From Lethocerus indicus (lineage: Eukaryota; Arthropoda; Insecta; Hemiptera; Belostomatidae), in contig JACDQD010000011.1 of the NCBI GenBank assembly GCA_019843655.1, forward strand, positions 7,668,604 to 7,732,603: a DNA stretch of 64,000 nt. The letters are read 5' to 3'. The notes below the pieces were generated by a model. The model did not search any database. It had not been told where the DNA came from and saw nothing but the letters and a program-made list of their open reading frames with translations. The stretch's first letter is position 1. The number at the start of each line of letters is the position of its first letter. This document shows, in pieces, positions 5,151 to 57,382 of this stretch. Both the position numbers and the translations under genes were made by a program.

Positions 5151-5289
5151 GCAATGAGGATGCCCGCTACTGAAGATGGCGAGCAGCCAAAACCGGTCTA
5201 GCAAAGACCAAACCAGCAAAAGGAGACAGAAACACAACAAATCTACGGTATTCCAACCCCTCGCAGACCACAAAACAGGTATGTTAAAC
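5151..5289 (+). mobile_element. Hairpin-tail element, single-arm copy
   Basis: Only the 3' arm and tail are present. It begins inside the arm at GAGGATGCC, has CGCTACTGAAGATGGCGAGCA, GGTCTAGCAAAGACC and GGAGACAGAAACACAAC, then the complete tail with TCGCAGACCACAAAACAGG and TATGTTAAAC. The 5' arm is missing, so this copy cannot fold into the long hairpin. No flanking direct repeat was found. The end CAGGTATGT is also a good 5' splice-site match. Confidence 0.8.
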
Positions 5290-5998
5290 GAAGAACTTTT
5301 TATTTCATAAAATTATAATAATAACGTGGGAGAAAAAAAATATGCGAAAAGATGGGAGCGATTTATACATTAATCGGGTCTTATTTTCGGGAAATTATCG
5401 CGGCTGGTTGAATACAACTCAATTACAAGGCGGTTTATAATATTATGAAACTCGGGGAGGTATTCCTTTTCTATAAATTTCGTTGAATTTTTCGAAATTG
5501 TGGGCCAAATTGCAGCCCCCCGGGTCGGTAGCCCGGCGTGACAATTAACCTAAATACATCCGCCATAAATCCGGGCGGGACGTCCCCCGGAAACTCGGGA
5601 CGGATTGCAGGGGCCCCGTTTTTGAATATTACAAACAAAACAAAACGCTAGAGCGGAGATTTAAGAGGCAACTCAACCTGTCGTGGGATTCGAATTCGCC
5701 TACACGGAAAAAATGTGTGCACCGATCGGCCATTAACTACAATAAATTTCCGCCTGGAAACTTCAAGAATAAGTTTATAGGAAGAAGCATCTACCTGTTA
5801 TGTCTACGGCCATTATATTATCAGTAAAATAATGATTTGATTCAGTTTTCAGTCAATGAGGATTGGTTGTATTCCTTAATATAAACAACAGTATTTTTGC
5901 AATACGCCATCAGTTTCGGACCTCTGTAACATCGTTATTATCGCATTTTTAGTAATAAAAACTCCTTTAAAAAAAATAAAAGACAGAAGAAAATAAAA

Positions 5999-6010
5999 GC
6001 GGTCAGATTT
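5999..6010 (+). repeat. 12-bp target duplication (left)
   Basis: GCGGTCAGATTT occurs directly before the element at 6011 and again, identical, directly after it at 6290-6301. It is host sequence and not part of other copies, so it fits a target-site duplication. Confidence 0.75.
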
Positions 6011-6289
6011 TGTAGATTTGTGTTTCTGTCTCCTCTCGCCGGTTTGGTCTTTTGCTAGACCGGTTTAGGCTGCTTGAGTAGCGGTGTTAGTCACTATTGG
6101 CACTTTGGATGTTTTTCGGGCATCCTCACTGCACTGTCACTCTGTCACCTGTACTGACAACGCCGCTACTGAAGATGGCGAACGGCCGAAACCGGTCTGG
6201 CGAAAGACCAGACCGGCGAGAGGAGACAGAAACAGAGGAAATCTACGGTATTCCAACCCCTCGAAGACCACAAAACAGGTACGTTGAAC
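6011..6289 (+). mobile_element. Hairpin-tail element, complete copy with 12-bp TSD
   Basis: A 279-bp copy. The 5' arm runs from TGTAGATTTGTGTTTCTGTC through GCTAGACCGGTTTAGGC to the loop near CACTGCACTGTCACTCTGTC. The 3' arm returns through CGCTACTGAAGATGGCGAACG, CCGAAACCGGTCTGGCGAAAG and GGAGACAGAAACAG. It is followed by the non-palindromic tail ending GGTACGTTGAAC. The two flanks are identical 12-bp direct repeats. No coding capacity: the frames across it are products of the palindrome. This copy defines both termini of the family. Confidence 0.88.
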
Positions 6290-6301
6290 GCGGTCAGATT
6301 T
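6290..6301 (+). repeat. 12-bp target duplication (right)
   Basis: GCGGTCAGATTT, an exact match to 5999-6010, immediately follows the element tail. Confidence 0.75.
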
Positions 6302-8796: not shown

Positions 8797-8800
8797 TCAA

Positions 8801-9029
8801 CCCTCTATGGGCCCGTGTACCGTTCAGATCACATTTCAATTTATCGAGATTTTACCAAATAATTATAGCTTTTTTCGTGAGATGGCGGATAAATCTTAAT
8901 CCTATAACCTTGTCAAGACAACCAATATCAATATCAATTTTTTTTCATTCGCATATATAGGTTTATAATTGCTGATTTTTCGTTCCCCCCATTTTCTGGA
9001 TGTAAAATAAAAATTCGGCCCATAGAGGG
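8801..9029 (-). mobile_element. piggyBac-like MITE, copy 2 (inverted)
   Basis: A 229-bp element. Left end CCCTCTATGGGCC preceded by TCAA (a one-base change from TTAA, 8797-8800); right end GGCCCATAGAGGG followed by TTAA (9030-9033). The internal block TAATTGCTGATTTTTCGTTC is the reverse complement of sequence in copy 1, so the two are in opposite orientations. No transposase is encoded. This is a typical deletion-derived piggyBac passenger. Confidence 0.78.
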
Positions 9030-9033
9030 TTAA

Positions 9034-10598: not shown

Positions 10599-10810
10599 AC
10601 TGCGTTTTGTGATCTGCGAGGGGTTGGAATAACGTAAATTATTTCGTATGTGTCTGTCTCCTCTCTCGCCGGTTTGGACAGTGCAGTGAGTATGCCCAAA
10701 AAACATATTAAGTGCCAAAGTGACACCGCTACTGATGATGGCGAGCGGCCGAAACCGGTCTAGCAAAACACCAAACCGGCGGGAGGAGACAGAAACACAA
10801 CGAATCTACG
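10599..10810 (-). mobile_element. Hairpin-tail element, minus orientation with TSD
   Basis: The tail is at the left (ACTGCGTTTTGTGATCTGCG, GAGGGGTTGGAATAACG) and the arm end at the right (CACAACGAATCTACG), so the copy is inserted in reverse. The interior loop region is deleted: the first arm jumps at CGCCGGTTTGG to CAGTGCAGTGAG of the second. Exact 12-bp direct repeats flank it. The left flank itself resembles tail sequence slightly, so a base or two of the boundary is uncertain. Confidence 0.85.
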
Positions 10811-11006: not shown

Positions 11007-11600
11007 CTTAAAATTTTCCAGATTGATTCATTAGTTACGCTCGAACAGTAAACGATAACTATGCTCCTTTACCGCTTTCAGAGTATTCGGACTACCGCTT
11101 TTCAAAAACTCTTCCCCCAAATACAGTGGCAATGTTCCTCAATGGGCAGGCGGACAGGAAGCGGCGGACAATGTTTAGAGACAGGAATTTCACCGGCGGT
11201 CGACCTGTAATAATCCCCCGTCCCCGGACCGAGTGAAAGGTCCCCGTGTACTTTGGATTTGAGGGAGGTCCGAGGGCATCTCCGATGGCCTATTAGAGTT
11301 GGAACCGAGGAAAGGAAAACAGACTCGGCCCGGATAATCCCCCCGGTAATGAGACCGCCATGACCACCGCCGCTCATTCATCCTCCCCCGATGTGCCTCA
11401 ATGGGCACCAGCGCCTTCAATGGCCGTCCGACGGGAAAACCAGGCATACGCCTGCGGAAAATATGAAATTCGCAATGAAATAACAATTCGCCCGACTATA
11501 TAGCACCTAAACAAACCTAGGTAATACATTTTGATATTTAAGATTAAGTATATTATGAGCAGAATAAAAAAGGGGGGGGCATTAGGAGGAAATTCAACTT
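11005..11600. other. Non-coding, GC-richer segment
   Basis: Overlapping minus-strand frames of 90-98 codons at 11102-11694 have no recognisable domain. The repeated phrase CTCAATGGGCA at 11137 and 11397 suggests a small local duplication. Confidence 0.35.
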
Positions 11601-11601
11601 T

Positions 11602-11750
11602 AGATTTCGTGTGTTTCTGTCTCCCCCCCGTTGGTTTGGTCTTTTGCTGAACCGGTTTTGGCTGCTCGCCATCTTCAGTAGCGGCGGCAGTCACTTTGGA
11701 TGTTTTTTGGGCATCCCCACTACACTGTCACTGTCACTTGTACTGACAGT
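11602..11750 (+). mobile_element. Hairpin-tail element, 5' arm only
   Basis: Begins TAGATTTCGTGTGTTTCTGT and runs through GGTTTGGTCTTTTGCTGAACC, GCTCGCCATCTTCAGTAGCGG and GATGTTTTTTGGGCATCC to CACTGTCACTTGTACTGACA, the expected loop edge. The complementary arm with the tail appears 228 bp downstream (11979-12141) in the expected orientation, so both pieces may be one element opened by an insertion or an unusually long loop. Confidence 0.75.
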
Positions 11751-11978
11751 GTATTGAATTTTGTACTGACTTGCTGCGCGAATTTTTAAAAGTGAACACT
11801 TTACAAGTAATTCTCGTGAAACAATCTTAAATTGTTCGGGGAATCAAAATTTATTTGAATATCAGCAAAGTTTCTGTACTGGAACAACGTTGAAACGAGT
11901 GTCAATACAGTGGACAATAGAAATAGGGGGACCAGAAATTCTTTAAACTAAGATTTGGTGTTGACTTGAGGATTGATA
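11751..11978. other. Segment between the two arms of a split hairpin-tail element
   Basis: About 228 bp of sequence not seen in other copies of the family lies where the loop should be. It could be a later insertion, an ancestral longer interior, or host DNA between two independent half-copies. No inverted ends or coding capacity are visible. Confidence 0.4.
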
Positions 11979-12141
11979 GTAAGGATGCCCAAAAAATATC
12001 CAATGTGACTAACACCGCTACTGAAGAAGGCGAGCAGCCGAAACCGGTCTAGCAAAAGACCAAACCAGCGAGAGGAGACAGAAACACACGAAATCTAGGT
12101 GTTCCAACCCCTCATTTCCCACCACTAAACATGTATTCTAA
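11979..12141 (+). mobile_element. Hairpin-tail element, 3' arm and decayed tail
   Basis: Starts AAGGATGCCC, continues CGCTACTGAAGAAGGCGAGCA, CCGAAACCGGTCTAGC, AAAGACCAAACCAGCGAGAGG and GACAGAAACACACGAAATC. The tail is diverged (TGTTCCAACCCCTC, then ACATGTATTCTAAA). It pairs with the arm at 11602-11750. Confidence 0.72.
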
Positions 12142-15100
12142 AAAAATGTAGATATCCATTATTAATTAAAGGAATTATTCAGTGCCCGGTAAGATATTAC
12201 CGTAAATAATAATAATTCATTATCGCAATACTATTAAGTTGCTATTATGAAATTAGCAAGTTGATACGTACTGAGAATTCTGGCGTTTCGAAATTATTTC
12301 ATTCGACCTATCAGTTAAAACCGGTCAAAGGAATGCCACGCGAAGATGTTCTTAGCCTGGTTTCCTGAAGACGGACTGGGAATACAGTCAGAAGATTAGA
12401 AGTATCAGGAGTCAGTCTAATCCTCTTAGCGGTAATTGGCCGTGGAGAATAAAAAAAAAGAAGGAAATAATACGACCGCGAGGAGACCTATTTATCGGGG
12501 CCCCACTAATCTCCTTTGATGGGGTATCGTCTTCGCCGGTAAGACGGAAATCCATGAAGGTTGGGGGGGGAGGGTTTCGGTTTGCAAATTAAGTGACCGC
12601 GTTCCGGCCGAAGGCGCCCGAGGCGTATATCTGGACATCTTAAGAAGTTATTTCCCGTTCCGGAAATCCGATAATTGGTCGTACTTGGGAGAGACGATCC
12701 CTAGGGGTAGGTGGGGGGGGGGGAGAAAAAATGAGAGCGAGCGCCCAAACTAGGCCTGAAAAACACTCATTAAAGCCATAGTCGGCTAATTAGGCCCCGA
12801 GAAAGACTAATTCTTACTCTGCCCGTCCCACCGGTCGTGGATTAGCGCTCCGAGTGGAAACTTTTATCTTATTCAACTGGAGAAAATAGTCATAATTATA
12901 CAATCATTTCCTATAATTAAACTATGGATGGATGGATAGTCTAACTACCGCTAGCAAAGAGATTCATCTTGGCCGGATACCACATCGAAATTTCCAAATA
13001 CCAAACGCCGAACTGAAACAATCTTTAAACTATTTCGGAGAAGATGTATACACAGAGGAGTGAAACCGACCGTGTTTAGAATTTAGAATTTTGTCGGTCT
13101 ATACTCTCTTACAAACTCTGTGTTATCGGACAAATATTGTATATCAAGAAGGCAGAGAACGATTTCTTGATTTCACGCTTAAACTACATTTAAAAAAATC
13201 GTACCATAAAAACAACCGGGTCCAAGTGAACCGGACTCCCCGATGGTTTCAAATATGCCATAAAAGGATTATTGTGCAGCACGATATAAAGATTTCAATT
13301 GCGAACTAGTTGTGCCTGAGGGGATCGACGCAGCTCTAAGTAAAGTGAACATTGAAACAGTAAAATATTTCGTTGTTGGAAAAAGGAGAGATAGAGAGAG
13401 AGAGAGAGGGCAAGAAAGTTCTCCCCGCCGGAAGCGCGGCATCTACGAAGAGCATCACTTAAAATTTTATCTGCGGCTTCATAATATTCGTTTTTGCTTG
13501 GGGGGGGTTTTACGATTCATAAATCAAACACGGTCCACGCCGAGTGCCGACTGAATATTCAATTCTCCGACCGAGCGATAAATCATTTAAGCGTTCCATA
13601 GCCGCGTTTGGAGAGCGACCACCGGACTTTTGTTTGAATCTCGGTCCGCTTTAAAAAAATCCTGAGACAAGTTATCGAAACTCATATATATAAATTTTGA
13701 AACTAAATGAGATAATTGCATTTTTTATACGGCTCGAGTGCTACCTCCTATAAAACTGTTAACACAGAGTGCCACCGGGACAGTAATAATAGTGACAGTG
13801 ATGAAATTATATTCCATCGGCAACCAACTTGCATTAAAGCGCAGTGTGTCGCTTACGGAACCCTAATGGCGTATAATAAATAAGCAATTGTTTCTAACTA
13901 ATACCCGTTACTTGCGTCTCAGTTTTACATTGTGGTACAATCAAATATTTCTTTGACATTAATTTTTCCGAATATTTATGCCCAATTCATGCTTATTTCT
14001 GGAAAAAATGAGAGACTACCGCTTTCGTTTGGATTTGAATTGAATTACATGCGGTTCGGAATACAAACACCGGGGTTGTGTGATTCTAATATCAAATCGA
14101 CTTTTTACTCCAGACTAAAGCGGAGACGGTAAATTGGATGAGTGATGTCACTGGCCACGTTCATCCTCCATGTCGGCCGGGCATTTCCTCCTCCCCGAAG
14201 ACCATTTACCCAGACACTTCTTCGGGCGCTTTTTCTTTCTTTTCTTTTTTTTTTAAGTACCACAGATGACAGTACAGTCGGTTTGAGGCTGTTGGAAATT
14301 CAATAACATTATACTGAAGAGGTAAAAAACAAGATGGCCCGGGCGCCGGCGGAGGACAGAACGTCCCCGTCATTGTTCCGATCACTAAGAAGCGAACCTT
14401 CCAAGTCCAGTCCCCCCTACAGCGCTGTCATTTTCTTCAATACTCCCCTCCTCCGGTCTTTTTAAAATTTTTTCCAGCTACAAACAGCGTCAACTCTCGC
14501 CTCGACCAGTCGATTACCGGATGAGGGGCCTCTCCATTGTATTGTCGGGCACCCGGGACACAGCGTCATCGGCGAAACGAGTCACCGCTATTATCGAGAG
14601 ACCGGCGTTATTTTTACCTAATATCCTGTCGAGCGTAGTATGCGCCCCCCCCCCTGGACCCTGGCTATATCCTTCCTTTCAACGCTGGGATCGGACGTTC
14701 ATATATTCCGTCGATGAGTTTTCTGGATTCGGACCGACTTTCCAGTATACGACTGCGGGAGCTCTCAACCACTTCGTGAACGGCCCACTCGAGAGTCGAA
14801 TATCCTTTCGTAGTGACTCGAATAACTTCCGGACATTTTATTTTTCCCGATAGTTGAGTTCAATGATGTCGCCTTAGTGTTAAATAGAAATGTTCGATCC
14901 AAAAGAAATACAAAATATACTACCTACTGCCTACTTCGGACACAATGGATAACTCTTACTAAATATCTTTACGAAAAAACATTGAACGTAAATTATTAAA
15001 TAACAAAAGGATTTCATCACCCGTTTCCAGTGATCCGTTACAATAATTTCCCAGCAAATACCGTAATTAAAATTATTTCGCAATGCCGAATTTATTAGTA

Positions 15101-21635: not shown

Positions 21636-21889
21636 TTAGATTTCGTGTGTTTCTGTCTCCTCTCGCCGGGTTGGTCTTTTACCAGATCGGTTTCGGCCGC
21701 TCGACGATCTTCAGTAGCGGTGTTAGTCACTTCGGCACTTCGGATGTCTTTTGTGGGCATGCTCACTGCACTGTCACTGTCACCTGTCACTGTGGTGTTT
21801 GTCCGTTGACAAATCGGCGAGAGGAGACAGGAACACACGAAATCTACGCTATTGCAACCCCTCGCAGATCACGGAAAAATTCTGTTACA
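21636..21889 (+). mobile_element. Hairpin-tail element, loop-deleted copy
   Basis: 5' arm TAGATTTCGTGTGTTTCTGT through GCCGCTCGACGATCTTCAGTA to CACTGTCACTGTCACCTGTC. Most of the 3' arm is missing: the sequence re-enters at CGGCGAGAGGAGACAGGAAC and runs to CACGAAATCTACGC. The tail is present but diverged (CTCGCAGATCACGG, then ATTCTGTTAC). AAAGGT on both sides is a possible short remnant of a target duplication. The 113-codon frame over it is palindrome-derived. Confidence 0.82.
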
Positions 21890-23767: not shown

Positions 23768-23937
23768 GTTCAGAATACCCGTCTTGCGGTCTGCGAGGGG
23801 TGCATGATTGACAGTGCAGTGAGGGTGCCCAAAAAACATCCCGAGTGACTAACACCGCTACTGAAGATGGCGAGCGGCCGAAACCGGTCTAGCAAAACCA
23901 AACCAGCGAGAGAAGACAGAAACACACGCAATCTACG
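23768..23937 (-). mobile_element. Hairpin-tail element, minus orientation with TSD
   Basis: The left end GTTCAGAATACCCGTCTTGC is the reverse complement of the family tail end, followed by GGTCTGCGAGGGG. The first arm is almost completely deleted: after GTGCATGATTG the sequence continues in the second arm (ACAGTGCAGTGAGGG, CGCTACTGAAGATGGCGAGC, CCGAAACCGGTCTAGC). It ends CACACGCAATCTACG. The direct repeat on both sides fixes both termini. Confidence 0.87.
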
Positions 23938-24084: not shown

Positions 24085-24190
24085 AGTGACTCACAACCCT
24101 ACTGACAGAAACAGGTACTGAAGATGGCAGAAATTTGTCTGGCAACAGTAACTATGGTATTCCAAACCCTAGCAGACTACATAATGAATA
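24085..24190 (+). mobile_element. Degenerate hairpin-tail element
   Basis: Scattered family words in the right order: GGAGTGACTCACAACCCTACT, TACTGAAGATGGCAG, GTCTGGCAACAGTAACTATG, GGTATTCCAAACCC, TAGCAGACTACATAATG. More diverged than other copies, so probably an older insertion. Confidence 0.6.
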
Positions 24191-27217: not shown

Positions 27218-27230
27218 CAACAAATGTGTT
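27218..27230 (+). repeat. Target duplication (left), 13 bp
   Basis: CAACAAATGTGTT; the right copy CAACAAATATGTT is at 27523-27535 (12 of 13 identical). Confidence 0.72.
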
Positions 27231-27522
27231 TAAAATGCCTGTTTTGTGGTCTGCGCGGGGTTGGAATACCGTAGATTTCGTGTGTCTGTCTCCTCTCGCT
27301 GGTTCGGTCTTTTGCTAGACCGGTTTCGACCCCTCGCCATCAAAGTCACTTTGGTACTTTGGATGCACAGTACAAGAGACAGTGACCCAGTGCAGTGGGG
27401 ATGCCCAAAAAACACCCGACGTCCCGAAAGTGACTAACACTGCTACTGAAGATGGCGAGCATCCGAAACCGGTCTAGTAAAAGACCAGACCAGCGAGAGG
27501 AGACAGAAACACACGAAATCTA
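27231..27522 (-). mobile_element. Hairpin-tail element, minus orientation, near full length with TSD
   Basis: The tail lies at the left (TAAAATGCCTGTTTTGTGG, GCGGGGTTGGAATACCG). Then come arm one (TAGATTTCGTGTGTCTGTC, GCTAGACCGGTTTCGACC), loop words (GATGCACAGTACAAGAGAC, CAGTGCAGTGGGGATGCCC), and arm two (CTACTGAAGATGGCGAGC, CCGAAACCGGTCTAG, GGAGACAGAAACACACG) ending AAATCTA. Arm one lacks part of the CTTCAGTAGCGG segment, so pairing is incomplete. At 292 bp it is among the longest copies. Confidence 0.88.
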
Positions 27523-27535
27523 CAACAAATATGTT
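27523..27535 (+). repeat. Target duplication (right)
   Basis: CAACAAATATGTT, one mismatch to 27218-27230. Confidence 0.72.
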
Positions 27536-29859: not shown

Positions 29860-31011
29860 TCCTTTTTCAAACTCATACAACACAAAATGAAAGTTTAATT
29901 TGTCATTTTCCATTTTGAATATTAACCCGACACGCAATTAACAGTTATATACACGAAATTAACAGTGTTTAAATTAAAAAAAAACTATAAGGAAATGCCT
30001 GGGAATTAAATGTAATTACGAACTTCTTTTGAAGGTTTTTTTTATGCCCCCAGGTTTTGTTTCAAAATACACTGTCGGAAGGTGTATTTTCATACTTCAG
30101 AATCATTAAAAAGGTACTATCTAATTATTTCAAGAAACCCGATCAATTGTATATTCTTTATAAATCCGCACTCGATATAAAGATCCGTTCGGTAGTTTTC
30201 AAGTTGAGGTAATTTCCAGAACAATCCCAGACACGCAGTTGTAACAAGTAACAAGAAGCGCCCGTACCGATAATTAGATGATGGCGAGAGGGGGGGCGTG
30301 GGGGTAAAAGGGTGACTACACAAATGCCATTAGGTAAGAACAAGAAAAAAGGAATAAGTAACTAACACTTGGACAAACCGGGACAAGACATTAACGGGCC
30401 ATTAACATTGTAAATGAATGTAAATGAAGGCCGGGGGCTTCCACCGTCTAATTTCAATAGGAGAGGCCCCCCCCGACACCGCTCTCCACTACTACTACTA
30501 CTACTGACTGTCCCGTTCCCCTCAACAGGAACAAGAAGTCGCCTTATGTAAAACACAGGGGGAATAGATTATATTAACGCCGCCCTACTAAAGACTGCCG
30601 CATTTAACAGTAACAGTCGGTGGATTACAAATCTGTAATATAAGGGGTGGCAAGTTAATAATTCTGTATGTTCACGCAAAATGAACAAAAAATCGTAGTA
30701 AAAAATAGTGTTTCCTAATAAAAAAATAGTATTTCTGAGATCATCACTTATGCGTTTCGATTTCTACCGTCGTCGGTGGTATTCAATTGTGCACTAGAGT
30801 GAGGTAATTGCGCGGTGTTACATACCAATAGACGAGGTCGTATTTGCGAACAGTTTTGGGACTAAGTTTAAAGGAGATAAATACTATATTATATTATAAA
30901 GAGATAAAATAACTAAGTAACTATCAAATTTGCATTCCCGAGACGATATTTTAGTCGTACCTTCGACAAAAGATAGGGATATCCAATAGTTCCAACGAAG
31001 AATTGAGAAAC
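29860..31011. other. Non-coding stretch
   Basis: AT-rich, with a GC-rich patch at 30380-30540 containing (CTA)n at 30489-30506. No feature recognised. Confidence 0.4.
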
Positions 31012-31020
31012 AAAAATCTA

Positions 31021-31060
31021 CGGTATTCCTACCCCTCGCAGACCACAAAAATGGTATTCT
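31021..31060 (+). mobile_element. Tail-only hairpin-tail fragment
   Basis: Forty bases carrying just the tail: CGGTATTCCTACCCCTCGCA, GACCACAAAAATGG, TATTCT. AAAAATCTA stands immediately on both sides (31012-31020 and 31061-31069). The left one also resembles the family's AAATCTAC arm end, so this is either a tail-only insertion with a 9-bp duplication or a fragment whose flank mimics it. Confidence 0.72.
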
Positions 31061-31069
31061 AAAAATCTA

Positions 31070-34332: not shown

Positions 34333-34707
34333 TCTTTCGTAATATTAAGCAATTATGAGTCAAAAAGTATTTCGAATGAAATTCGATCCCTGCAAAAACA
34401 CCTCTCCCTCATAGAAAGCTGGTCCAGGAAATGGAGGATTAAGTTCAATTGTCAAAAAAGTCTTCGTGTTACTTTTACTCTGAGAAGAGCAACTTGTCCT
34501 CCCGTTTTCCTGAACCGGTCCCAACTTCCTATTGAAAATCAAGTGCGGTACCTGGGACTGCTCTTAGACAGAAGATTGACACGGAACCCACATACAAGAC
34601 TGAAACGTACAAGGAGTTCACTGAGTGAGTGTAAAACTAGAGCAGTGTCACTAGATACAATCTTAAAAAATTCTAGCTGTGACTATACAATAAATAAAAA
34701 TAAATGA
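34333..34707 (+). pseudogene. Jockey-clade LINE reverse transcriptase fragment
   Basis: A 124-codon frame, open from a stop at 34330 to TGA at 34705. From about residue 20 it follows the C-terminal part of the Jockey-like RT domain: LQKHLSLIESWSRKWRIKFN, then a Lys-Ser pair (KS) and VTFT, then PPVFLNRSQLPI, then VRYLGLLLDRRLT and a following His (PHTRLKR). These are the residues that normally come just after the catalytic YxDD motif and through the thumb. YxDD, the N-terminal RT half and the endonuclease are not present upstream, and the remaining C-terminal part (ILKPxxxYG) is not clear downstream. It is a dead fragment. It is better preserved than the 32-33.7 kb copies and not necessarily the same family. 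Confidence 0.88.
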
Positions 34708-36319: not shown

Positions 36320-36332
36320 TATAAACATATGG
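36320..36332 (+). repeat. Target duplication (left), 13 bp
   Basis: TATAAACATATGG; right copy TATAAACATACGG at 36541-36553 (one mismatch). Confidence 0.72.
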
Positions 36333-36540
36333 TAGATTTCGTGTGTTTCTGTCTCCTCTCGCTGGTCTGGTTTTTTCAGATGGTCTGCTCGCCATCTTCA
36401 GCAGCTGTGTAGTCACTTTTGGTCTTTGTTTGTTTGTCTGTACATATAGCAAAAGACCAAACCAGTGAGAGGAAACAGAATGAACACACGAAATCTACGG
36501 TATTCCGATCCCAGCAGACCACAAACCAGGTATTTTAAAC
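36333..36540 (+). mobile_element. Hairpin-tail element with 13-bp TSD
   Basis: 5' arm TAGATTTCGTGTGTTTCTGT, then GCTCGCCATCTTCAGCAGC and TAGTCACTTTTGG, then an aberrant loop with TTTGTTTGTTTG. The 3' arm re-enters at GCAAAAGACCAAACCAG and runs to ACACGAAATCTACGG. The tail has TATTCCGATCCC, CAGCAGACCACAAACCAGG, TATTTTAAAC. The direct repeats abut both ends exactly, in the plus orientation. Confidence 0.88.
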
Positions 36541-39694: not shown

Positions 39695-39745
39695 GTTAAG
39701 AATACCTATATTGTGGTCTGCGGAAACACACGAAATCTACGGTGC
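39695..39745 (-). mobile_element. 51-bp minimal hairpin-tail copy with perfect TSD
   Basis: Minus orientation. The left half is the tail end in reverse complement (GTTAAGAATACCTATATTGT, GGTCTGCG); the right half is the arm terminus (GAAACACACGAAATCTACGG). The palindromic body and half of the tail are gone, yet both termini and exact 11-bp direct repeats are intact. It is short enough to be missed by standard repeat masking. Confidence 0.83.
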
Positions 39746-40549: not shown

Positions 40550-40810
40550 TTTCAACAATTCTGGCCTCATTTGGGGAACACTGTAGACGGTGTATTTAAA
40601 AATTTTAAATCGAAATTTCGGGACGTCCATGTTTTTAAATAGCACCTCCTTAAAGGGTATATTTATATGCAATATATATAGTATATGATATTTAAACCAA
40701 AAATCGATGACGATGGAGTCCAAAAAAACATGGACGTCCCGAAATTTCGATTTAAAATTTTTAAATACACCGTCTACAGTGGTCCCCAAATGAGGCCAGA
40801 ATTGTTGAAA
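40550..40810. repeat. Long near-perfect inverted repeat (87-bp arms)
   Basis: Arms at 40550-40636 and about 40723-40810 are reverse complements with, by eye, one mismatch (GGGGAACACTG against GGGGACCACTG). Each arm carries CAACAATTCTGGCCTCATTT, GTAGACGGTGTATTTAAAAA and CGGGACGTCCATG-type sequence. The loop is about 86 bases. No target duplication is evident and no other copy occurs in the window. Possible readings are a foldback/MITE element or a hairpin RNA gene of the type that yields endogenous siRNA or a long miRNA precursor. The 94-codon minus frame over it is a consequence of the palindrome. Confidence 0.93.
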
Positions 40811-42694: not shown

Positions 42695-45242
42695 CTCCTC
42701 CGCTTGGACACCTACAGTAATGACCGCAGCACGCGTCCGCGTTGGGGCCGCCCCGCAACCTTTAATTAATTAATAAAACGCTTGGCCATATCATTGTTGC
42801 GGCCCCTTTATGTTCAAACCCGTCTGTTGTGGCCGGCCACCACAAGTCAAGAATAACAACGCCTTCCTTTGTCGGTAACAAACACTTCTTTTTAACTTCG
42901 CGGCTGAACGTCAATATATACGGCTGGTCTTAAATACACGTGCACTAGATCGCCGTTGACTTTGAACGAATAGTATTCGGGAATATTCAGGTATAGAATA
43001 TATTGTTTGCAATGATGTTTCAGGTACTAGTAACAAATAAAGAATAACGGAGGAAAAACACCCTGTCTATCGACCTTTCTTTAAATTTTTATTTATCGGT
43101 TGGCCAGTTCCTTTTCTGAATGATATATCGGGAGTAAGTAGGGTTTGCACTAGGATGTTGGAACGCTGGAATCCAGCGTGCAGGTTCTGTGAGCCGAAAC
43201 CGCCGGCGAACTACCGGAGTATGATTTTAGGGCCGGACCGCAGACTGAAGCCCGAGTGATTTGACAGGCAGCTCTCCGGCTGTTTATTGCCGCGCTTCCA
43301 GGGGCTGGAATTCGGCCTCTTTGAAATGTCGCCTCCGCCAATAATCATATTTGTTTCATTACGTACTTTAGCGACGGGAGTCGATTTTACGACCGAACGA
43401 ACCCTCATTATCTAGTGGCGTGTTGGGCGGCTTGAAACGGTTTTTACGCTTACATTGTAGGGCCCTCCCGGGTGTTATCCAGTAGAGCTCGCTCAGATGA
43501 TTTCGAACACAGGAAAAAATGCCATTGTATTACGCGATCCTACAGGAAGTCAGTTAATTTCCGAAGCAAATATTAGGGCCGGAGAAACCTATTTATTTTT
43601 GTATGCGCCCGCCGTGCGGTAGCTCTAGTGCGCACTACATTGTGTGACCCCTTGTATTGTGGACCGAGGGTTGGAATGGATCGGGAAATGAGAGCGTCGG
43701 TTGGGGTGTCGCCGTGAAAGAGCCGTTTAACCGGGCCTATCTGGCCTAGACAATGGCGTAGAGCACAAAGTAGGAAGAGCTGAATATTACCCACTTGTGG
43801 GCCCAACCGGACACTCTAAACAGCCCAGTCACCGCGCACAATGATCGGCCTCCCGGTAACAAACCGCCCCGGGTCGCCCCCCACCTCCATTGATGAACCC
43901 ATTACAATATGTGGGACCCAGCTCCCGTTTTGGATCTCCGCCTCCCCAGTCGGGCCCGGAGATGTCTGAAAAGTTGATCAACAGCTTTGATTGAGATACG
44001 CTACAAAATAAATAAAAACGAAGGACTAAACCTGCACGCTGGCCTCTATATGCGGCTCACAGAAATGCGAGGTTTAATTGGTCGAGGTAGGACTGGCTGT
44101 GCAACAAAGTGGCAAAAAGCCACCGCCCCCCGCCCCGCCGCCACATCACCCCCAAACGGGGGAGAATTCAATTTCTCGACTGTCCAATAAACAATTGTCG
44201 GGCCGTAAAAGCCGTGGCGGTGTTTACGACGCCGGACGGCAATTAAGTGAGCCCCGCGAGCGGACCCTAATTGCGGGCCGACCCCCCGGCCCAAACCCCA
44301 CACGTCACGGGCACGTCGCCGCAGCTCCAATCTTGCCAGCCCCAGGACCACTACCCCCTTGTGACTGCTTCACTATTGTCCAGTGGGCCCAAACAGCACT
44401 CGGTAATGATATAGAAACGCAGAAGGAGGAGTGGCCATTTATTCTTCAAATCTTAAGTATAGTATAAATATAGTATTACGCCAGTAGTGGGCATGGCGTG
44501 AGGTCAAAGAGAAACCGGATTCCCCCTGTTTTACATATATCATAAACAGCGCTATGGTATGTAGCTATCGGATATTCGAATAGTGCTAAGCGTCACTACC
44601 ATTGTAAACTGCCGGTAAATGCATCACTACCTGCTGAGTATTTATATGGTGCATAATACTATGAAGACAATTCCAAAACTGTGATCGATGGCATCAGTAG
44701 TAGTAAACGAAGCAGGGAGAAATGCGTCAATAAATAAGAAATGATAATATATAAAAGCCATCGCGTCAAAGGCGTTATGCGATACGACGAAGAGTGTTCG
44801 GCGACTCGACAGAATTTACGGAAGAGAGAATACATTTCCTCGAGCAGCCGGGACAGAACGTAAATTTCCGGCCGTAAGGGCGGGCGGAGGGGAGGGGGAC
44901 GGGAGTCACTTTTGTCGGAAATGAAAAGCAGGAGTCGGCCCCGTTAACTTTGTTAAAGCCGGCACCTCCTCGACGTCGCCCTCGGCCAACAAACCCAATT
45001 TAGAAAACGGAAGAAGATTCCAATCGATGAAATACATTTTTTTTCCATCCTTAAGAAGAATCCTCGGCGACAATTTATCCACATTAAGCTTATATAGTAT
45101 TGGGGGGAGTCGATGTTTAACCGAACGTTTCTCCGGACAGATTTCTTTTACTCATATCTGCCATTTATTATACTCAGGCGATGGGACTCTACAGTATTAC
45201 GCTGTATCCAACCTTAATTTTGTTATAGCTCGTTCAAGTTCA
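40811..45242. other. Non-coding, largely GC-rich blocks
   Basis: 42360-42780 and 43140-44380 are GC-rich. They contain GGCGGCGGCGGCGGCGG at 42384-42400, a GA microsatellite at 42650-42692 and many TAAT/CCCC words. Two small adjacent hairpins lie at 42024-42060. Open frames of up to 129 codons lack a domain. No transposable element was recognised, apart from a very weak hairpin-tail-like phrase at 41372-41396. Confidence 0.4.
42650..42692. repeat. (GA)n microsatellite
   Basis: About 21 GA units with almost no interruption, within a GC-rich block. Confidence 0.96.
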
Positions 45243-45417
45243 GTACAAGTGACAGTGACAGTGCAGTGAGGATGCCAAAAGTGGCTGACACCGCTATAGA
45301 AGATGGCGAGCAGCCGAAACCGGTCTAGCAAAAGACCAAACCAGCGAGAGGAGGCAGAAACACAACAAATCTACGGTATTCCAGCCCCTCGCAGAGCACA
45401 AAACAGGTATGTTAAAC
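45243..45417 (+). mobile_element. Hairpin-tail element, single-arm copy
   Basis: Starts at the loop edge (GTACAAGTGACAGTGACAGT, GCAGTGAGGATGCC) and carries the whole 3' arm (GAAGATGGCGAGCAGCCG, CCGGTCTAGCAAAAGACC, GAGAGGAGGCAGAAACAC) and full tail (GGTATTCCAGCCCC, TCGCAGAGCACAAAACAGG, TATGTTAAAC). Together with 5151-5289 it shows that a one-armed form exists. No direct repeat flank was seen. Confidence 0.82.
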
Positions 45418-46313: not shown

Positions 46314-46680
46314 GTTATTTTAAAATAGCTGTTTTGAGGTCTGCGAGGGGTTGGGATACCGTAGATTTCGTGTGTTTCTGTCTCCTCTCGGCGGTTCGAT
46401 CTTTTGCTAGACCGGTTTCGGCTGTGCTCGGCATCTTCAGTAGCGGTGTTAGTTACTTTTGGCACTTTGGATGTTTTTCGGGCATCCTCACTGCGCTGTC
46501 ACTCTGTCACTTGTACTGCGGTGGTTGGTCAAGACACGTTAAGGCCTTAAGGTCGACGTTAAGGACAACCACCACAATAGTACAAGTGACAGTGACAGTG
46601 CAGTGAGGATGCCAAAAGTCGCTGACACCGCTACTGAAGATGGCGAGCGGCCGAACAACCGGTCTAGCAAAAGACCAAAC
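46314..46680 (-). mobile_element. Hairpin-tail element, longest interior
   Basis: The tail lies at the left (GTTATTTTAAAATAGCTG, GGTCTGCGAGGGGTTGGG). It then has a full arm one (TAGATTTCGTGTGTTTCTGT ... CTTCAGTAGCGGTGTTAGTT ... CACTCTGTCACTTGTACTG), a central 61-bp loop and a nearly full arm two. It is cut at GCAAAAGACCAAAC before the expected CACGAAATCTAC end. The loop (46517-46577) extends the stem with GGTGGTTG/CAACCACC and holds AAGGCCTTAA, so it probably shows the ancestral centre of the palindrome. No TSD was found, consistent with loss of the right end. Confidence 0.86.
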
Positions 46681-47207: not shown

Positions 47208-47402
47208 AATATTTGTGTGCACACGAAATCTACAGTAAATCAGTTATCTTAAATGCTCTCGTTTATACTCGATTTTCATCAATGCCGGTAATAATTATGC
47301 TCTGTTTCAGGGTGTTGTACGGGTGGATAGATCTGTTTGTGGATGTTAGGATAGATGGGCTAACAAGGCGAGACGTTGCGGCCCAACAAATCACCGGGTG
47401 TC

Positions 47403-49519: not shown

Positions 49520-51010
49520 GGAGCAAATCAGTTAAAAATTTAAGATACCAGGTAGAATTAGAAAACTTTCATTATACATCCAGACCGGGGGGTACTAAGA
49601 AAAAAATATTCTTAACTTTATTATGTCTGTGGGGATCAAGAATGTAAATAAATAAGCATCATCTTATATGAAATTCTAATTTCCATGAAGATATATATAT
49701 AACTGATCGAAAAATACAGTATTGGAGTTTTTGGCCCATTTAAATTTAAAATGAGTTCAAGCAATTTATCGTCAAACCGTGTCCGCCGTTTTCTTGGAAA
49801 AATGTCAGAAACACGTTGAAAAAAATCAGTTGAAAAGTGCATCGAATATATTTAAATCGGTGGGCGGTCGATTCTGTATTCGCCCCCTAGAATCACGATT
49901 TTTCCCAATTTCTTAGAATATGCAGATTGAGTACGCGATCGGCAGTATCGGATCGGAAACAGTGGCCCGGATCTGTAATAAATATTGAAGTCCGAGCAAG
50001 AATAAGAACGGATCGTTTGGAAGGCAGATGGGAATCAATCGATATTTATAGAGATCTAGAATTAATGTTTAACAATTAACGAATAAAATGTTCTGTTTAT
50101 CGTTGAAACGTCTAATGCTGTCGTATGAGTACAAAACAAGATGCTGGAGAGGACAGGGAATATATAACTGACGACTCCATTGTTATACTTCAACTAAATT
50201 GAGCCGATTTTCATAGGTAAAAATATATATATAGCGGCTGGATAGAAAGGTCGGAGACTTTGTCGAAAGGTGTCATGCTTTCGATATTTATTCTCGGCGC
50301 TATATTTATTGCTCGGTTACGGGCCGCAAATAACAGGCCGCCGGTAATAAAAAGCCTGTCGATAAATCGGCTGTGGCCCATATTCAATTAGAACATCATA
50401 AAGTATATTTCTCTTGCGCCGACAGCGGCCGTTTGTTTTCTTTCTTTACGCTTTCTCTTCGAATGAGCGCGCTCCCCGGTGCTTCCACTATCTCGTCCCC
50501 GCTGGGTAAGTTGCGATTTCCCGCTGTCCGGATAAGAAGCGGGGGAGGGGGGGCGACGATAGCGATCTGACGTTGGGCGGAGGATCGGAGGATGTCGCCC
50601 AGGGCATTGGCCCCGGGGCCTAGGCCCGGGCCGCTACCTATATAGTAATTAATCGCGGCACCGCTCAACTGATTTATGGAAGGGAGCCCATTACAACAGC
50701 ATCGCTATCCCGGGCACACCGGCTATTAGGAAATTCCAGCCGGGAAGGTGTACCACGGCCGGAGGAGATTTTTAATGCCAGACGGACACACGAAGGGCGG
50801 ACTTCATACAGAGTAAATATACGCCAGAAAGAAGTCAGTTTTTTTTTTTACTTCATTCTCTCTAATGTGCGCGTTCGACACGTCCTAATACTGGTTCTTT
50901 AATTCTGAACTAATCGATTTCTCTCCATCCCAGCGAATCTTCGCTAGGGACACTTCTCCAGAAGCGACCATGGGCTCTAGGTTCCCTACTGGAGAAAGCT
51001 CAATCCTATA
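49520..51010. other. Non-coding stretch
   Basis: AT-rich to 50260, then GC-rich 50260-50800. A plausible plus-strand acceptor (CGCCGACAG at 50417-50425) and donor (CTGGGTAAGT at 50500-50509) bracket an open segment, but its translation is not convincing. Poly-G 50539-50549. Confidence 0.35.
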
Positions 51011-51012
51011 AC

Positions 51013-51046
51013 GTAGAATTGTTGTGTTTCTATCTCCTCTCGATGC
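51013..51046 (+). mobile_element. Possible hairpin-tail 5' end fragment
   Basis: GTAGAATTGTTGTGTTTCTA then TCTCCTCTCGATGCC resembles the family's 5' arm start with several changes; nothing of the rest follows. Confidence 0.4.
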
Positions 51047-52861: not shown

Positions 52862-52921
52862 CCGCGACCAGAACTTCAGTTATCACCGGTGGGATCGCTT
52901 AATACCTCGTGAAGAACCTGA
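52862..52921 (-). repeat. Partial copy of the 20-21 kb inverted-repeat family
   Basis: CGCGACCAGAACTTCAGTTA then CACCGGTGGGATCGC, TTAATACC. Same order as 21399-21450 and 57871-57921. The continuing plus-strand frame reads WDRLIPREEPDD, but the third copy does not preserve it, so it is not evidence of coding. Confidence 0.65.
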
Positions 52922-53052
52922 TGATGCTCCAGGGTTACGGGGAAAACGACGAAAACCTATCAACTGGCGAGGGCTTGGGTGGTTTCCAAACACAGGAAAA
53001 ATCCCAGACTATTCAGAGTTTTTCCCATGTGCTATTATTAAAGTACTATCGT

Positions 53053-53224
53053 GGATTTCGCGTGCCCCCAAAACATCCAATGTGCCAAATGTGACTAACA
53101 CCGCTACTTAAGATGGCGAGCACAGCCGAAACCGGTCCAGCAAAAGACCAAACCAGCGAAAGGAGACACACACGAAATCTACGGTATTCCAACTCCTCGC
53201 AATACCACAAAAAAGGTATTCTAA
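53053..53224 (+). mobile_element. Hairpin-tail element, first arm deleted
   Basis: A few bases of the 5' terminus (GGATTTCGCGTG) join directly to the second arm at CCCAAAACATCCAATGTGCC. The arm then runs through CGCTACTTAAGATGGCGAGC and CCGAAACCGGTCCAGC to CACACGAAATCTACGG. The tail has TATTCCAACTCCTCGC, ACCACAAAAAAGG, TATTCTAA. GTACTATCG before and GTATTATACG after are a possible decayed duplication. Confidence 0.82.
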
Positions 53225-54443
53225 TGTATTATACGGATAATATACCGAACATTAGGGGACCCTAATACAGACATTTCCATGAAGTTTATAGTACCATCAA
53301 TGAGGTTCTTGTTGTGGAAGGACTCGCTTCGATTAAATGAATCTTCTCTACAAGGAATCGGCTCTCATCAGTAGGCTCAGTTGTTAGGTTACGAGATTGG
53401 ATGTTAGTCCCTTCGTTCGCTCATACATATATAGACAGATTATATAATAGGTCAGCGGGCAATAAATAACGTCGCGGCCAAGATAGAATAAGTTCGTGCG
53501 CGAAATATTATTGGGGCAATCGTGAACAGCGTTTTTGGCGCCCGGGGGGCAATTACTATGAGTTCATAAGGCAGAGGGGGAAGCGCGGGTTGTATTTTTC
53601 GTAATTTTTATTTTCCCCGTGTCGAAACTCGCGAAAACTGGAGTGGCGACCCGAAGCGCGAAGTCCGGAGAGCGAGAATTTGGTTTGGCTTATGGAAAAA
53701 AATCGATTTATGCGAGTCAGGTTTTTTTTCCCGACTTCGGGCGAACCAACCCCAACTCCGGAGTATAGGAGGACCACCGTTTTAATCCGGCCTCCGCAGG
53801 TTCGGCGGATTTATAGCGTTCGGAAATATGAAAGACCGCCGCCGCCGCCTCCGGTTATAAATCAATAGATAAGATCCGAGAGAGCGGACCGGTTCACAGT
53901 TAGGAACTAATTATTCCCGCTGACACCGGGGCCCAGCGTAACATGGAAGGCGGGGGGTTAAAAAAATTGGCGGGGTCGTATCGATTTTCGATTCCTATAC
54001 GGGAGGGAAATATTTAAACTTTAAGAAGAATTCAGGGCGTTCGGGCTATATCTCAGAGACCGTCTGTTGAGGAAACTGTGTCGGTCAAGAGCTTTGAACT
54101 TTTCGTGGAGCGGGACGGGGATAATTTGTTGGGTGACTGTCGCTTTTATGGACGGGGCCAGAAGCGGGTGTTCAGCTATTGAAACTATAGCCCTTCTGAA
54201 TTATCACAGCAAGCACGAAAAACGGTGAAGTAGTCCATTCGCTGATAAATGAGCAAACGTCTCCGTTATACAATAAATTATTTCTCTTATTATATAAATC
54301 TCATAAAGTCCAGAACCTCGCGAGAAATTATTTTGTTATACTAAACGTAATTTTTTTTAAGCCCCCCCCCCAAAAAAAAAATGTATTCATATACGAGTAT
54401 ACTAAATTTTATTTGTTAATAACAACCTGTATAAAAGGTGATA
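53225..54443. other. Non-coding; GC-rich 53450-54180
   Basis: Contains CCGCCGCCGCCGCC at 53837-53850 and long homopolymers at 54362-54379 (C then A). No coding signal recognised. Confidence 0.4.
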
Positions 54444-54451
54444 AAATTTAG

Positions 54452-54646
54452 AATGCCTGTTTTGTGGTCTGCGACGGGTTGGAATACCGTATATTTCGTG
54501 TGTTTCTGTCTCCTCTAGCTGGTTTGCCAATCTTCAATAGCGGTTTTAGCCGGATGCCCAAAAAACATCCAACAGTGCCAAAGTGGCGAGCAGCCGAAAC
54601 CCGTCTAGCAAAAGACCAAACCAGCGAGAGGAGACAGAAACACACG
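54452..54646 (-). mobile_element. Hairpin-tail element, loop-deleted, minus orientation
   Basis: Tail at left (AATGCCTGTTTTGTGG, GCGACGGGTTGGAATACCG). Arm one is short (TATTTCGTGTGTTTCTGT, CTGGTTTGCCAATC, TTCAATAGCGG). The loop side retains GATGCCCAAAAAACATCC; arm two runs from GGCGAGCAGCCG to CACACG. AAATTTAG stands on both sides (54444-54451 and 54647-54654), but the right one overlaps the expected arm end AAATCTAC, so an 8-bp duplication is only probable. Confidence 0.84.
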
Positions 54647-54655
54647 AAATTTAGG

Positions 54656-55677
54656 AAAAAAGTAATAATATTTCTTTTTCATTTTGACGGTGACAATAAT
54701 TCGTTCAAATAATTTGAGTGTATCGTCGGTTTTCCCAAAATTGGAAACACGAAACCGATCTTTTTCTTTTACTGAGCCAACGTCGGGGACTCTGAAGCTC
54801 TATGGAGTAGTCCTAGGAAGTCCCGATTGAAGTCCCTCTAAAAATGTACTTAGTCCAGACAAAAAGGGGCAATCTGCAGGAAGAACAGAGGGTCCGGACA
54901 GACGGCGGCTGCATATTTGATGAGCCATTTCTGCCGGCAAATATTTGCGTAGCTGCCCGGAGTCCGGTGCACGGCTCGTCTAACCGGCTTTAATAATTGA
55001 TAAAGCCCGCCAACCTCCTCCACTAGTACAATCCGCCATTTCCTCGGTTTCTAATAAAATTATCGACTCAAGTATCGCCCTCGAAATGTTCCTTTGAAAG
55101 ACAATGGCTTTAAGATCACTTCAGAGTGTCCTGAATAGGTCCGACGAGACGTTGCAGATCGATGTCCCTTTTTTCTCTCATTCAGTGTGAACAAATCCTT
55201 TCCCTTGATATAATTCTATTTACTTGTAGTTGTTACAATTAAAATACTAGTTATATTTAATAGAATTATGGATGCATTAATTGTAAACTCTTTTCAATTG
55301 ATCGAAGTTATCAAGAACACTCTGGTTTGGATTTAAAAGTCTGGAGACGTAAAGAAATTCCTTGACAAGGATAAAACATAAATATACACGAAATAAAACA
55401 TGTTGAACCTTTAAAACCAATGTCATATCTTATTCAATTAATAACTAACGAAAAAATCAAATTCAATTGAATTAATGTAAGTAATAAATACTCGGTTGGC
55501 CCCGTTTCTAATATCCATCATCTGTATATTTTCAGTAATTGCAATCTCCTAGCAACGAGACACCTCTATTCAGTATTAAGTAAACAGAAGAAAATAATGG
55601 TTCGAGCATAAAAAAAAGCCTATATCGCTCGGTTTAAGAGGGGAATATTACAAGTGTAGTCTCTCATTAGAAATACA
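54656..55677. other. Non-coding stretch
   Basis: AT-rich DNA, GC-richer at 54880-55070. Nothing recognised. Confidence 0.4.
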
Positions 55678-55889
55678 GTGTTTGTTCAAACGTTAACGCC
55701 CGCCTGTGGTAGCCTCCGCAGACACTGGCAGGTCCGCAATTACCGATTAACGCCCATCGTTTCGGTGAATTATCTGCTCTGTTGGAGATTCAGGATGTAC
55801 AATCGATTTATGCTCGCACCGCCGTTCGAAAATGTACTGGGCCCCGTACGAAAACCAATTCGGGAACCCTCGAGAACATTTTATCTATT
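55678..55889 (+). other. Open segment ending at a consensus splice donor
   Basis: A 70-codon open stretch on the plus strand ends CTATTGAG followed by GTGAGT, a near-ideal donor. The translation (for example RRHWQVRNYRLTPIVSVNYL) shows no domain, and no clear acceptor or ATG sets its start. Could be an exon of unknown kind, or chance. Confidence 0.18.
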
Positions 55890-57118
55890 GAGGTGAGTGA
55901 AATTTTCGATATTTAATACGAACTCATAAACGAATCGCGATAAAGGTATTAGCTAAAATAATGCTCTCAGTTTCAGTTCTATTTTGGTGTCAGGCTATAG
56001 AATCAATAAATAAGTAAAAAATGGACATAAACCTAATGACATAATGTTTAAAATGGCTATCACATATAGATCGCATTAATTTAATAAACCCGAACATATC
56101 TCCGCTGAGGATTTTACTTTTAAATTTACATATTTGCGGATCGAGAGCTTAGATAAGTAAGAACAGGGTTTTACATTTTCCGCTTTAAGCTTTGTCATAA
56201 TGGTATATTTTAAATACAATCAGAAACAATCCAAGTCACAATCAAGTTTATTCTTACAACCTTCGGAGTCGCTGATTAAACTTCTTTAAAAAATATTCAT
56301 TCCGAAAATTGAATTGAAGGACTAACCTCCCACGCCGCCTTTACAGGGGGGTTTGCTCCATTTGTAAATTTTAATATTTATTTTCGGCTCAGATTAAGTC
56401 CTTTCTTTATTCTTAAAATTCCTCTCGTAGGTGTCATTTAGGTACAAATTTGACGAGCCAAGAAACACATTAACAGATTAGGGGTACTTTTCGAAGAGAA
56501 ATTGAATAATTAATAGCACATTTATAGGTGGCAATATTTAGAAAAGTTGGCTCTCTTCTGCAAGTTTATACAACATTGATGGGCCCGAATTTTAATAATT
56601 AAAGCGGTAATTCTTCTTATCGTTGCCCCTCGCGCGAATTCCGAGGGCGTTAATAATCGAGAGCGATTTGTTTGAGTCTAAAAATTGAGGGTGTTTACCC
56701 AGCGAGGTTGTCGGCCCGGGGTTTGCGGACGGGCTGGGGCGGACTGGAAGCTTACCTGGAGGACGGGTTCAATTATTTAATGAAGATTAATAACCGGCGT
56801 AGTTAGACTGTCACGAGCCGCTGGCATGAGTTATGCGTTCACCTGGCCAACCTCCCTAAGCTCCTTCCCCCTCCTCCCTCCCTCCACCCTTCAGCTCCAC
56901 CATACGACAACCCTTTATCCAGGCTTGCCGCACCCGCTCTCAGATTACCCAAATTTATATTTCATACAGAGTCCGCGATTATTTGAGCACGTTATAAAAA
57001 TAGGACCGAAAATAATAAAAATAATGACAGTACGGCAGTAATAACAGTAGATGGGCGCATAACTGGCCAACTGAGCTATTTAAGCAACGAGTTAAAAATA
57101 AATAAATTAGAGATCGAG
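55890..57118. other. Non-coding stretch
   Basis: AT-rich. A minus-strand donor-like CCTCCAG followed by GTAAGC at 56751-56763 is preceded by stops in all frames, so it is unlikely to end a coding exon. Confidence 0.4.
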
Positions 57119-57382
57119 ACCCGCTTTGTGGTCTGCGAGGGGTTGGCATACCGTAGATTTCGTGTGTTCCTCTCTTCTCGCTAGTTCGATCATTTGCTAG
57201 ACCGGTTTCGGCCGCTCGCCATCTCCAGTAGCGTTGTTGTTAGTCAGTGCAGTGAGGATGCCCGAAAAACATCCACAGTGCCGAAGTGACTAACACCGCT
57301 ACTGAAGATGGCGAGCAGCCGACCAAGCGGTCTAGCAAAAGACCGAACCAGCGAGAGGAGACAGAAAACATACGAAATCTAC
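57119..57382 (-). mobile_element. Hairpin-tail element, minus orientation
   Basis: Tail at left (ACCCGCTTTGTGGTCTGCG, AGGGGTTGGCATACCG), arm one TAGATTTCGTGTGTTCC to GCCATCTCCAGTAGCG, arm two from CAGTGCAGTGAGGATGCCC through CGCTACTGAAGATGGCGAGC to CATACGAAATCTACA. The outermost tail bases are diverged and no flanking duplication was found. Confidence 0.86.

Follow-up and report, generated by a model that had tools for sequence, protein, structure and literature searches.

Short hairpin repeats of Lethocerus indicus are leader insertions of a Penelope-like retrotransposon and probably record the joining of two cDNAs

In a 64,000-nucleotide stretch of Lethocerus indicus DNA (assembly GCA_019843655.1, contig JACDQD010000011.1, positions 7,668,604 to 7,732,603; hereafter, the window), we characterized a family of short repeats that combine two inverted arms with a one-sided tail of 43 nt. 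The repeats are almost certainly short insertions of a retrotransposon of the Penelope-like element (PLE) class. Judging by their sequence, the arms represent the end of the PLE pseudo-long terminal repeat (pLTR), and the tail falls within codons 1 to 38 of the PLE frame. The best explanation overall, and a likely one, is that the copies are footprints of the PLE formed as two leader cDNAs joined to each other. Leader positions are numbered from the arm/tail boundary, which places the TATA box at about -186, a CAGT motif at -154, the ATG at -72, and the two kinds of copy end at 0 (proximal) and +43 (distal).

Results

A hairpin family with a one-sided tail

Three motifs of the family were far more frequent in the window than in its shuffles. 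GTAGATTTCGTGTG had 27 matches (up to 3 mismatches; shuffle mean, 4.98), CAGACCACAAAACAGG had 12 (shuffle mean, 0.31), and GGTATTCCAACCCC had 14 (up to 2 mismatches; shuffle mean, 0.60), and in each case none of 100 shuffles had as many. The copies align as the preliminary description of this DNA had proposed, and the hairpin family with its one-sided tail is therefore real; of the approximately 18 copies claimed, we counted 17 copies or fragments and, in addition, an isolated 14-base match at 47220. In two-ended copies, the inverted arm starts at or near GTAGATTTCGTGTG, and the direct arm, where there is one, ends with CACGAAATCTAC, the 43-nt tail being found there only. The arms had been thought to measure a constant 100 bp or so. 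In fact, some copies (e23 and e39) lack the direct arm altogether, other arms reach 179 nt or more, and arms of the same copy are usually unequal.

Genome-wide (427 Mb), a 33-nt core of the tail gave at least 11,338 matches with up to 3 mismatches, or about 27 per Mb, compared with 0 for the reversed-pattern control; this count may include loci twice, as some contigs are apparently duplicates (e.g., C4/C144). Exact-pattern scans of the viral and the bacterial/archaeal collections gave 0 matches in each. The window (positions 1 to 64000) is a local hotspot of the family, with 17 copies in 64 kb versus 3 in eight other 10-kb stretches under the same BLAST criterion, a several-fold higher density based on small numbers. 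A strand bias, suggested by listed places that were all on the plus strand (C1, about 1.3 to 10.5 Mb), was not supported, since locus L007 holds an unlisted exact tail on the minus strand and the non-central tailed copies in the loci of that stretch are 11 plus and 9 minus.

Linkage to a Penelope-like element

In the direct arm, an ATG stands 72 nt ahead of the tail, and arm plus tail are free of stop codons, translating as MASGRNRSSKRPNQREETETHEIYGIPTPRRPQNRYFK. We queried the genome with an 84-amino-acid generic PLE thumb/GIY-YIG motif, which returned 150 matches at E values up to 10 (best E value, 1.9e-12). Sequence of the pLTR was present at 18 of the 20 PLE-enzyme loci returned, L069 and L070 being the exceptions and L077/L078 and L084/L085 looking like duplicate contigs. 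Furthermore, it lay just downstream of the endonuclease match, on the same strand, at 17 of the 18 pLTR-bearing loci. The pLTR peptides at the enzyme loci, such as MASSRNRSSKRPNQREETETSRTYS(IPTPRRPQNRYIK), also given as MASSRNRSSKRPNQREETETSRTYSIPTPRRPQNRYIK, end after residue 25 or 26, without the tail, at some loci and after residue 38, with the tail, at others. Both tailed and tail-less ends exist; the 43 nt are an optional extension of the pLTR that equals codons 25 to 38 of the PLE frame.

One decayed, near-complete copy has the order leader, tail, reverse transcriptase, endonuclease, pLTR. Locus L072 contains a reverse transcriptase-endonuclease region that is decayed upstream of position 853 and has a stop after 1989, with the pLTR at 2048 (2048-2231). 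Farther upstream, this contig also includes L089, which at 2233-2407 carries the leader from about -130 to +42, including the ATG and the tail, and a PLE N-terminal domain lies about 0.4 kb beyond this leader, at L072 9-343, in broken frames. The leader and tail at L089 and the pLTR at L072, arranged around the reverse transcriptase and endonuclease, place the tail within the PLE frame and pLTR sequence on both sides of it. Insect homologues of L072 include P0001 from Ranatra chinensis (42% over 491 amino acids; E value, 6e-107) and P0028 (over about 500 amino acids), the latter of which passes both Pfam RVT_1 and GIY-YIG. A search with the N-terminal peptide gave no candidates. Two results weigh against the assignment: the Pfam GIY-YIG model (PF01541) found 0 matches on this genome, and L072 itself falls short of the RVT_1 cut-off and gives no Pfam GIY-YIG match, so that the identity of the enzyme rests on the homologues. 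A tandem array of PLE units apparently occupies G000:C1:10485217-10508931, where the endonuclease matches follow one another at intervals of about 1.7 kb on a single strand.

This linkage changes the classification of the repeats. The preliminary description had considered a retroposon resembling a short interspersed nuclear element (SINE) and mobilized by the enzyme of a long interspersed nuclear element (LINE), or else a new DNA element. By the linkage of pLTR and frame, the reverse transcriptase is that of the PLE and not of a LINE; an independent SINE can be discarded, as promoter, start codon, and tail all belong to the PLE; and the family is not a new DNA element, because its sequence doubles as the pLTR and frame start of an element encoding reverse transcriptase and endonuclease. 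A search for the tail in the 3' untranslated regions of LINEs would miss the element, because the PLE starts reverse transcription in the 5' part of its frame. In the window, ARAGORN found no tRNA gene and Rfam no family at gathering score, A and B boxes not having been searched by a tool. The SINE class was rejected on the grounds that the tail is part of the PLE frame and that ARAGORN found no tRNA gene in the window.

Fixed ends and the predicted promoter

The 3' ends of the arms concentrate at two places, -1 to +6 (60 of 194) and +40 to +43 (101 of 194), although these frequencies are biased toward tailed ends, as loci were chosen by exact tail and the reference stops at +43, which counts against taking them at face value. 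In Poseidon_Ac (PAc), the PLE of Anolis carolinensis, the tail is the stretch between two adjacent internal start sites of reverse transcription, according to the available part of the source (PMC11167929). By analogy, the two copy ends of our family, at about 0 and +43, match both of these start sites and the anole tail. Thus, the earlier proposal that the tail is the place where reverse transcription starts agrees with the start sites measured for the anole PLE.

The 5' ends of the arms are scattered along the leader and show a peak between -156 and -152 (22 of 189); another 15 coincide with the limit of the reference. Of the 23 arms long enough to show the TATA box, 17 contain TATAWA, mostly 28 to 36 nt ahead of CAGTAC where this is readable outside long TA runs. 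The pLTR therefore seems to carry a promoter of the RNA polymerase II type, with TATA about 30 nt ahead of a CAGT initiator at -154, and may be transcribed from it. Ahead of the TATA box, longer copies at L024, L035, and L038 contain repeated units of about 70 bp, as judged from repeated matches.

The leader also contains a possible hammerhead motif that spans the start codon, GCUA-CUGAAGA-UGGCGAGCGGCC-GAAACCGGUC-UAGC, which fits a loose descriptor. This descriptor had 4 matches in the window and 42 in 36 of 89 loci but none in 6.4 Mb of random sequence. Hammerheads in PLEs were reportedly described by Cervera and de la Pena. Against a ribozyme here, Rfam scored no hammerhead in the family, U10.1 (the base after A9) is unpaired in the model, and the folding is unremarkable (z score, -1.42). 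We therefore term the motif a candidate, and it might have ribozyme activity.

Usually one tail per copy

Of 22 two-ended copies not chosen by exact tail, 20 have a single tail (all 10 in the window, the single one in the other stretches, and 9 of 11 among non-central neighbors within loci); the window count omits e46, which has one unclassified end, and e53, whose left arm is below threshold. The two exceptions, non-central copies in L054 and L067, were scored by the script as tail-less and by eye continue into arm/tail sequence, and they were retained in the count. When tail-selected copies are included, 49 of all 56 pairs are one-tailed, 5 are two-tailed, and 2 are tail-less. Tails at both ends were seen in L007:1193-1543, L003, L041, L044, and L056. 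Independent choice of the two start sites would give at most half one-tailed copies, and the observed 20 of 22 makes coordination between the ends likely.

Joints and arm lengths

The two arms of a copy are not correlated in length. Among the 39 copies whose joints are close, 2 had arms differing by 6 nt or less, compared with a shuffled mean of 3.8, and 4,548 of 5,000 shuffles did as well or better; the median difference was 56 nt. This bears on a snap-back, or self-priming, origin, in which one cDNA folds and copies itself, a model offered for rotifer Penelope in the available text of PMC3846280. Snap-back does yield head-to-head inverted repeats, and some copies, e46 among them, have nearly equal arms; however, equal arms are no more frequent than in shuffles, and the second end would not be expected at a fixed start site of reverse transcription. 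We consider snap-back very unlikely.

The joints mostly have short overlaps or inserts (39 copies) and differ among unlinked loci; identical ones were found only among neighbors in L005 and in L067 and between L001 and L002, two loci with flanks in common. Near-equal end points occurred in 4 of 741 copy pairs, one pair being neighbors in L005 and the other three having different joint letters. The joint of e10 had 1 match in 427 Mb, versus 9,790 for an arm 35-mer of equal length. Besides, arms of the same copy are more similar to each other (0.902) than arms of different copies (0.876), a difference reached in 0 of 20,000 permutations (45 copies). These uncorrelated arms, the differing joints, and the unique e10 joint argue against the earlier idea that the RNA is a ready-made hairpin, and we infer that the hairpin is made at insertion by the joining of two cDNAs.

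The same data bear on a SINE-like master, that is, one or a few hairpin loci transcribed whole, their RNA being reinserted by a PLE or LINE enzyme and the tail asymmetry simply inherited. Such a source would suit the very regular one-tail architecture and the arm end points of L014 and e06, which agree within 1 nt. The junction letters differ even between these two copies, however, and the rarity of near-equal end points, the confinement of identical joints to the loci named above, the single occurrence of the e10 joint, and the greater likeness of arms within copies all speak against it. A master of this kind is thus improbable, if less so than snap-back.

Target duplications

Flanks of 11 two-ended copies in the window were compared with a background of 110 mismatched flank pairs. 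Of the six copies for which duplications had been reported, five stand (those at 6.0, 10.6, 23.8, 36.3, and 39.7 kb), each beating all 110 mismatched pairs. The sixth, at 27.2 kb (e27), is weak, its 7 exact bases being equaled by 7 of the 110 pairs and no better than those of e54 and e57, which had not been reported. Flank repeats of e12, e21, and e53 were not above this background. Over the whole window set, 0 of 100,000 permutations matched the observed duplications. Among 56 two-ended copies, a set that leaves out pairs with an end short of -6 or with flanks past the locus edge (e.g., L005 2840), 27 have duplications, compared with 2.7% of cross pairs. The measured length is 7 to 12 bp, in most cases 8 to 11 bp, with a mode of 9 to 10, so that the duplications previously given as 11 to 15 bp are present and somewhat shorter than stated. 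The view that the family arose by retroposition, with duplications longer than in most DNA transposons and without an A-tail, holds.

A nonautonomous DNA transposon, whether a miniature inverted-repeat transposable element (MITE), a foldback or Mutator-like (MULE-like) element, or a Helentron with asymmetric inverted repeats, would account for inverted arms and high copy number. We regard it as practically dismissed, because the duplications vary from 7 to 12 bp, the joints vary, and the same sequence forms the pLTR and frame start of a reverse transcriptase/endonuclease element. MITE and foldback classes in particular were rejected for the duplications and differing joints and because the family ends are not MITE-like, one of them usually having the extra 43 nt.

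Discussion

A probable two-cDNA route of insertion

Insertion through two cDNAs is, in our judgment, the probable mechanism. The PLE transcript would begin at -154 and reverse transcription would start at 0 or +43, leaving a template of only about 160 to 200 nt; with these two start points, only the leader could be copied. In most insertions the leader alone would be copied, and full-length copies would require read-through of tandem units. The target would be cut on both strands, 8 to 11 bp apart, and each target strand would prime a cDNA on RNA of the same kind, one cDNA usually starting at the distal and the other at the proximal site. Each cDNA might reach the 5' end of the RNA or stop early, and the junction between the two would involve a short overlap or a small number of added bases. 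The product would be a pair of inverted arms bearing a single tail and flanked by a target duplication.

Support comes from the PLE linkage, the fixed ends, the varied joints, the duplications, and the excess of arm ends at -154. Priming on both strands and the identity of the template are presumed in the model. Priming from each strand is the simplest source of two cDNAs, because the anole PAc protein acts in vitro on both target strands, cutting and extending each, as stated in the available part of PMC11167929. Copying of the leader alone would also fit the excess of tail matches (11,338) over endonuclease matches (150), although each count is incomplete and the criteria differ. A more specific version, a coordinated two-strand, two-site reaction in which reverse transcription starts once at +43 and once at 0 at two nicks, the leader cDNAs are joined end to end, and full length is exceptional, is one that we favor slightly.

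Several observations count against this account. One tail is a strong tendency and not a rule, given the five two-tailed and two tail-less pairs; about half of the two-ended copies have no detectable duplication; TATAWA is absent from 6 of the 23 long arms; and the genome-wide uniqueness of joints rests on one joint, that of e10. In addition, central deletion in older, longer palindromes could likewise yield unequal arms. Long palindromes are unstable. Longer, equal-armed palindromic PLE insertions, made from two cDNAs or from tandem plus inverted pLTRs, may therefore have lost their centers later through palindrome-provoked deletion, an origin with which the short overlaps at joints and the existence of longer copies with spacers (L025, L037, and e12) would agree. 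The peak of arm 5' ends at the predicted start, -154 (22 of 189), is not expected from random deletion, and we hold center loss to be unlikely, albeit the least unlikely of the alternatives to the joining of two cDNAs at insertion.

Copies in the window

Copy e06 (6012 to 6289, plus strand) displays the full architecture: an inverted arm from 0 to -154, a joint near 6155, a direct arm from -93 to 0, and a tail to +43. By flank comparison, its target duplications are at 5999 to 6010 (GCGGTCAGATTT) and 6290 to 6301. Its tail (6247 to 6289, plus strand) equals PLE codons 25 to 38 and lies between both start sites of reverse transcription. Its candidate hammerhead (6165 to 6201, plus strand), GCTA-CTGAAGA..GAAACCGGTC-TGGC, is a descriptor match that encloses the ATG of the PLE frame and is negative in Rfam.

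The other two-ended copies on the plus strand are e12 (11600 to 12142), with a 232-bp middle stretch; e21 (21636 to 21887); e36 (36332 to 36540); and e53 (53051 to 53224), with an inverted arm of 14 nt, a direct arm of 122 nt, and a tail. On the minus strand are e10 (10604 to 10809), whose joint at 10660 to 10694 is the one found singly in the genome; e23 (23768 to 23936), whose tailed side consists of tail sequence only (+9 to +43); e27 (27228 to 27523); e39 (39695 to 39740), an 18-nt inverted arm fused straight to the tail; e54 (54447 to 54654); and e57 (57119 to 57382). Copy e46 (46319 to 46680, minus strand) is a long two-armed copy whose inverted arm has no outer part. One-armed copies with a tail, all on the plus strand, are e05 (5164 to 5289); e31 (30992 to 31063); and e45 (45241 to 45417), whose arm begins at the predicted transcription start, CAGTACAAG. 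A 38-bp fragment at 51008 to 51045 has a tail-less end.

A divergent relative occupies 24111 to 24184, where ACTGAAGATGGC at 24111 precedes a tail-like fragment, GGTATTCCAAACCCTAGCAGAC (24152 to 24184, plus strand), and possibly represents another PLE subfamily. Two 87-bp arms at 40550 to 40810, 99% complementary and 87 nt apart, gave no BLAST match to the footprint family and perhaps belong to another hairpin or MITE family. An open frame of 124 amino acids at 34333 to 34707 resembles by eye the end of a LINE reverse transcriptase, with no Pfam match at an E value of 0.001.

Significance and comparison with known systems

More than 11,000 tail matches offer a large natural set of reaction products in which ends, joints, and duplications can be read and the mechanism tested. 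The products examined agree with the two in vitro start sites of the lizard PLE and argue against self-priming. If true, coordinated two-site insertion would account together for the inverted pLTRs, for a tail on only one side, and for the existence of the pLTR, and it would replace the self-priming model. The PLE insertion route, the inverted pLTRs, and the one-sided tail are called unresolved in the available parts of PMC11167929 and PMC3846280. As a caution, short families filed in repeat libraries as unknown hairpins or MITEs can be PLE leader footprints. In the literature searched, no PLE family was described as mostly leader footprints and no joint-level test of two-cDNA insertion appeared, and a search on PLE and "twin priming" found no paper.

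Parts of this architecture are already known. As far as the available texts go, inverted pLTRs, an optional one-sided tail, and duplications of 8 to 10 bp have been reported for rotifer Penelope (PMC3846280), and inverted pLTRs and 3' extensions are mentioned in a curation guide (PMC8969392). The Penelope of Adineta vaga has a pLTR with the first codons, a TATA box and an initiator, duplications of 8, 9, and 10 bp, an optional 31-bp tail on one inverted pLTR, and an inverted pLTR that is 37 bp shorter (PMC3846280). It thus resembles our family in its frame-start pLTR, one-sided tail, inverted pLTRs, short duplications, and promoter. The A. vaga elements are, however, full or near-full and of low copy number, with inverted repeats ascribed to self-priming (PMC3846280), whereas the copies examined here are mostly the leader alone, and their arm lengths argue against self-priming.

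Metazoan retrozymes, in the accessible portion of PMC7229834, are small nonautonomous repeats as well; they have type I hammerhead motifs and are thought to be moved by PLEs. They are tandem monomers with circular RNA and canonical hammerheads, in contrast to the inverted pairs and minimal PLE-type motif seen here, and the retrozyme class was rejected because our copies are inverted pairs and not tandem monomers.

The anole PAc is similar in several measured respects (PMC11167929, in the part available). It likewise has two start sites of reverse transcription, an AC-rich start region, and AT-rich targets, and its start codon lies within a hammerhead motif, of which our family has a candidate. 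In the main text, to the extent available, the only use of "inverted" refers to an inverted dT end block, and there is no discussion of inverted copies or cDNA joining. Our family differs from that account in that many genomic footprints display the joint and in that the hammerhead is an imperfect match. The spacing is nevertheless close, with 115 nt from the ATG to the distal start site here versus 111 to 118 nt in PAc and 23 nt from the ATG to the ribozyme cut, predicted in our case, versus 26 nt in PAc (PMC11167929).

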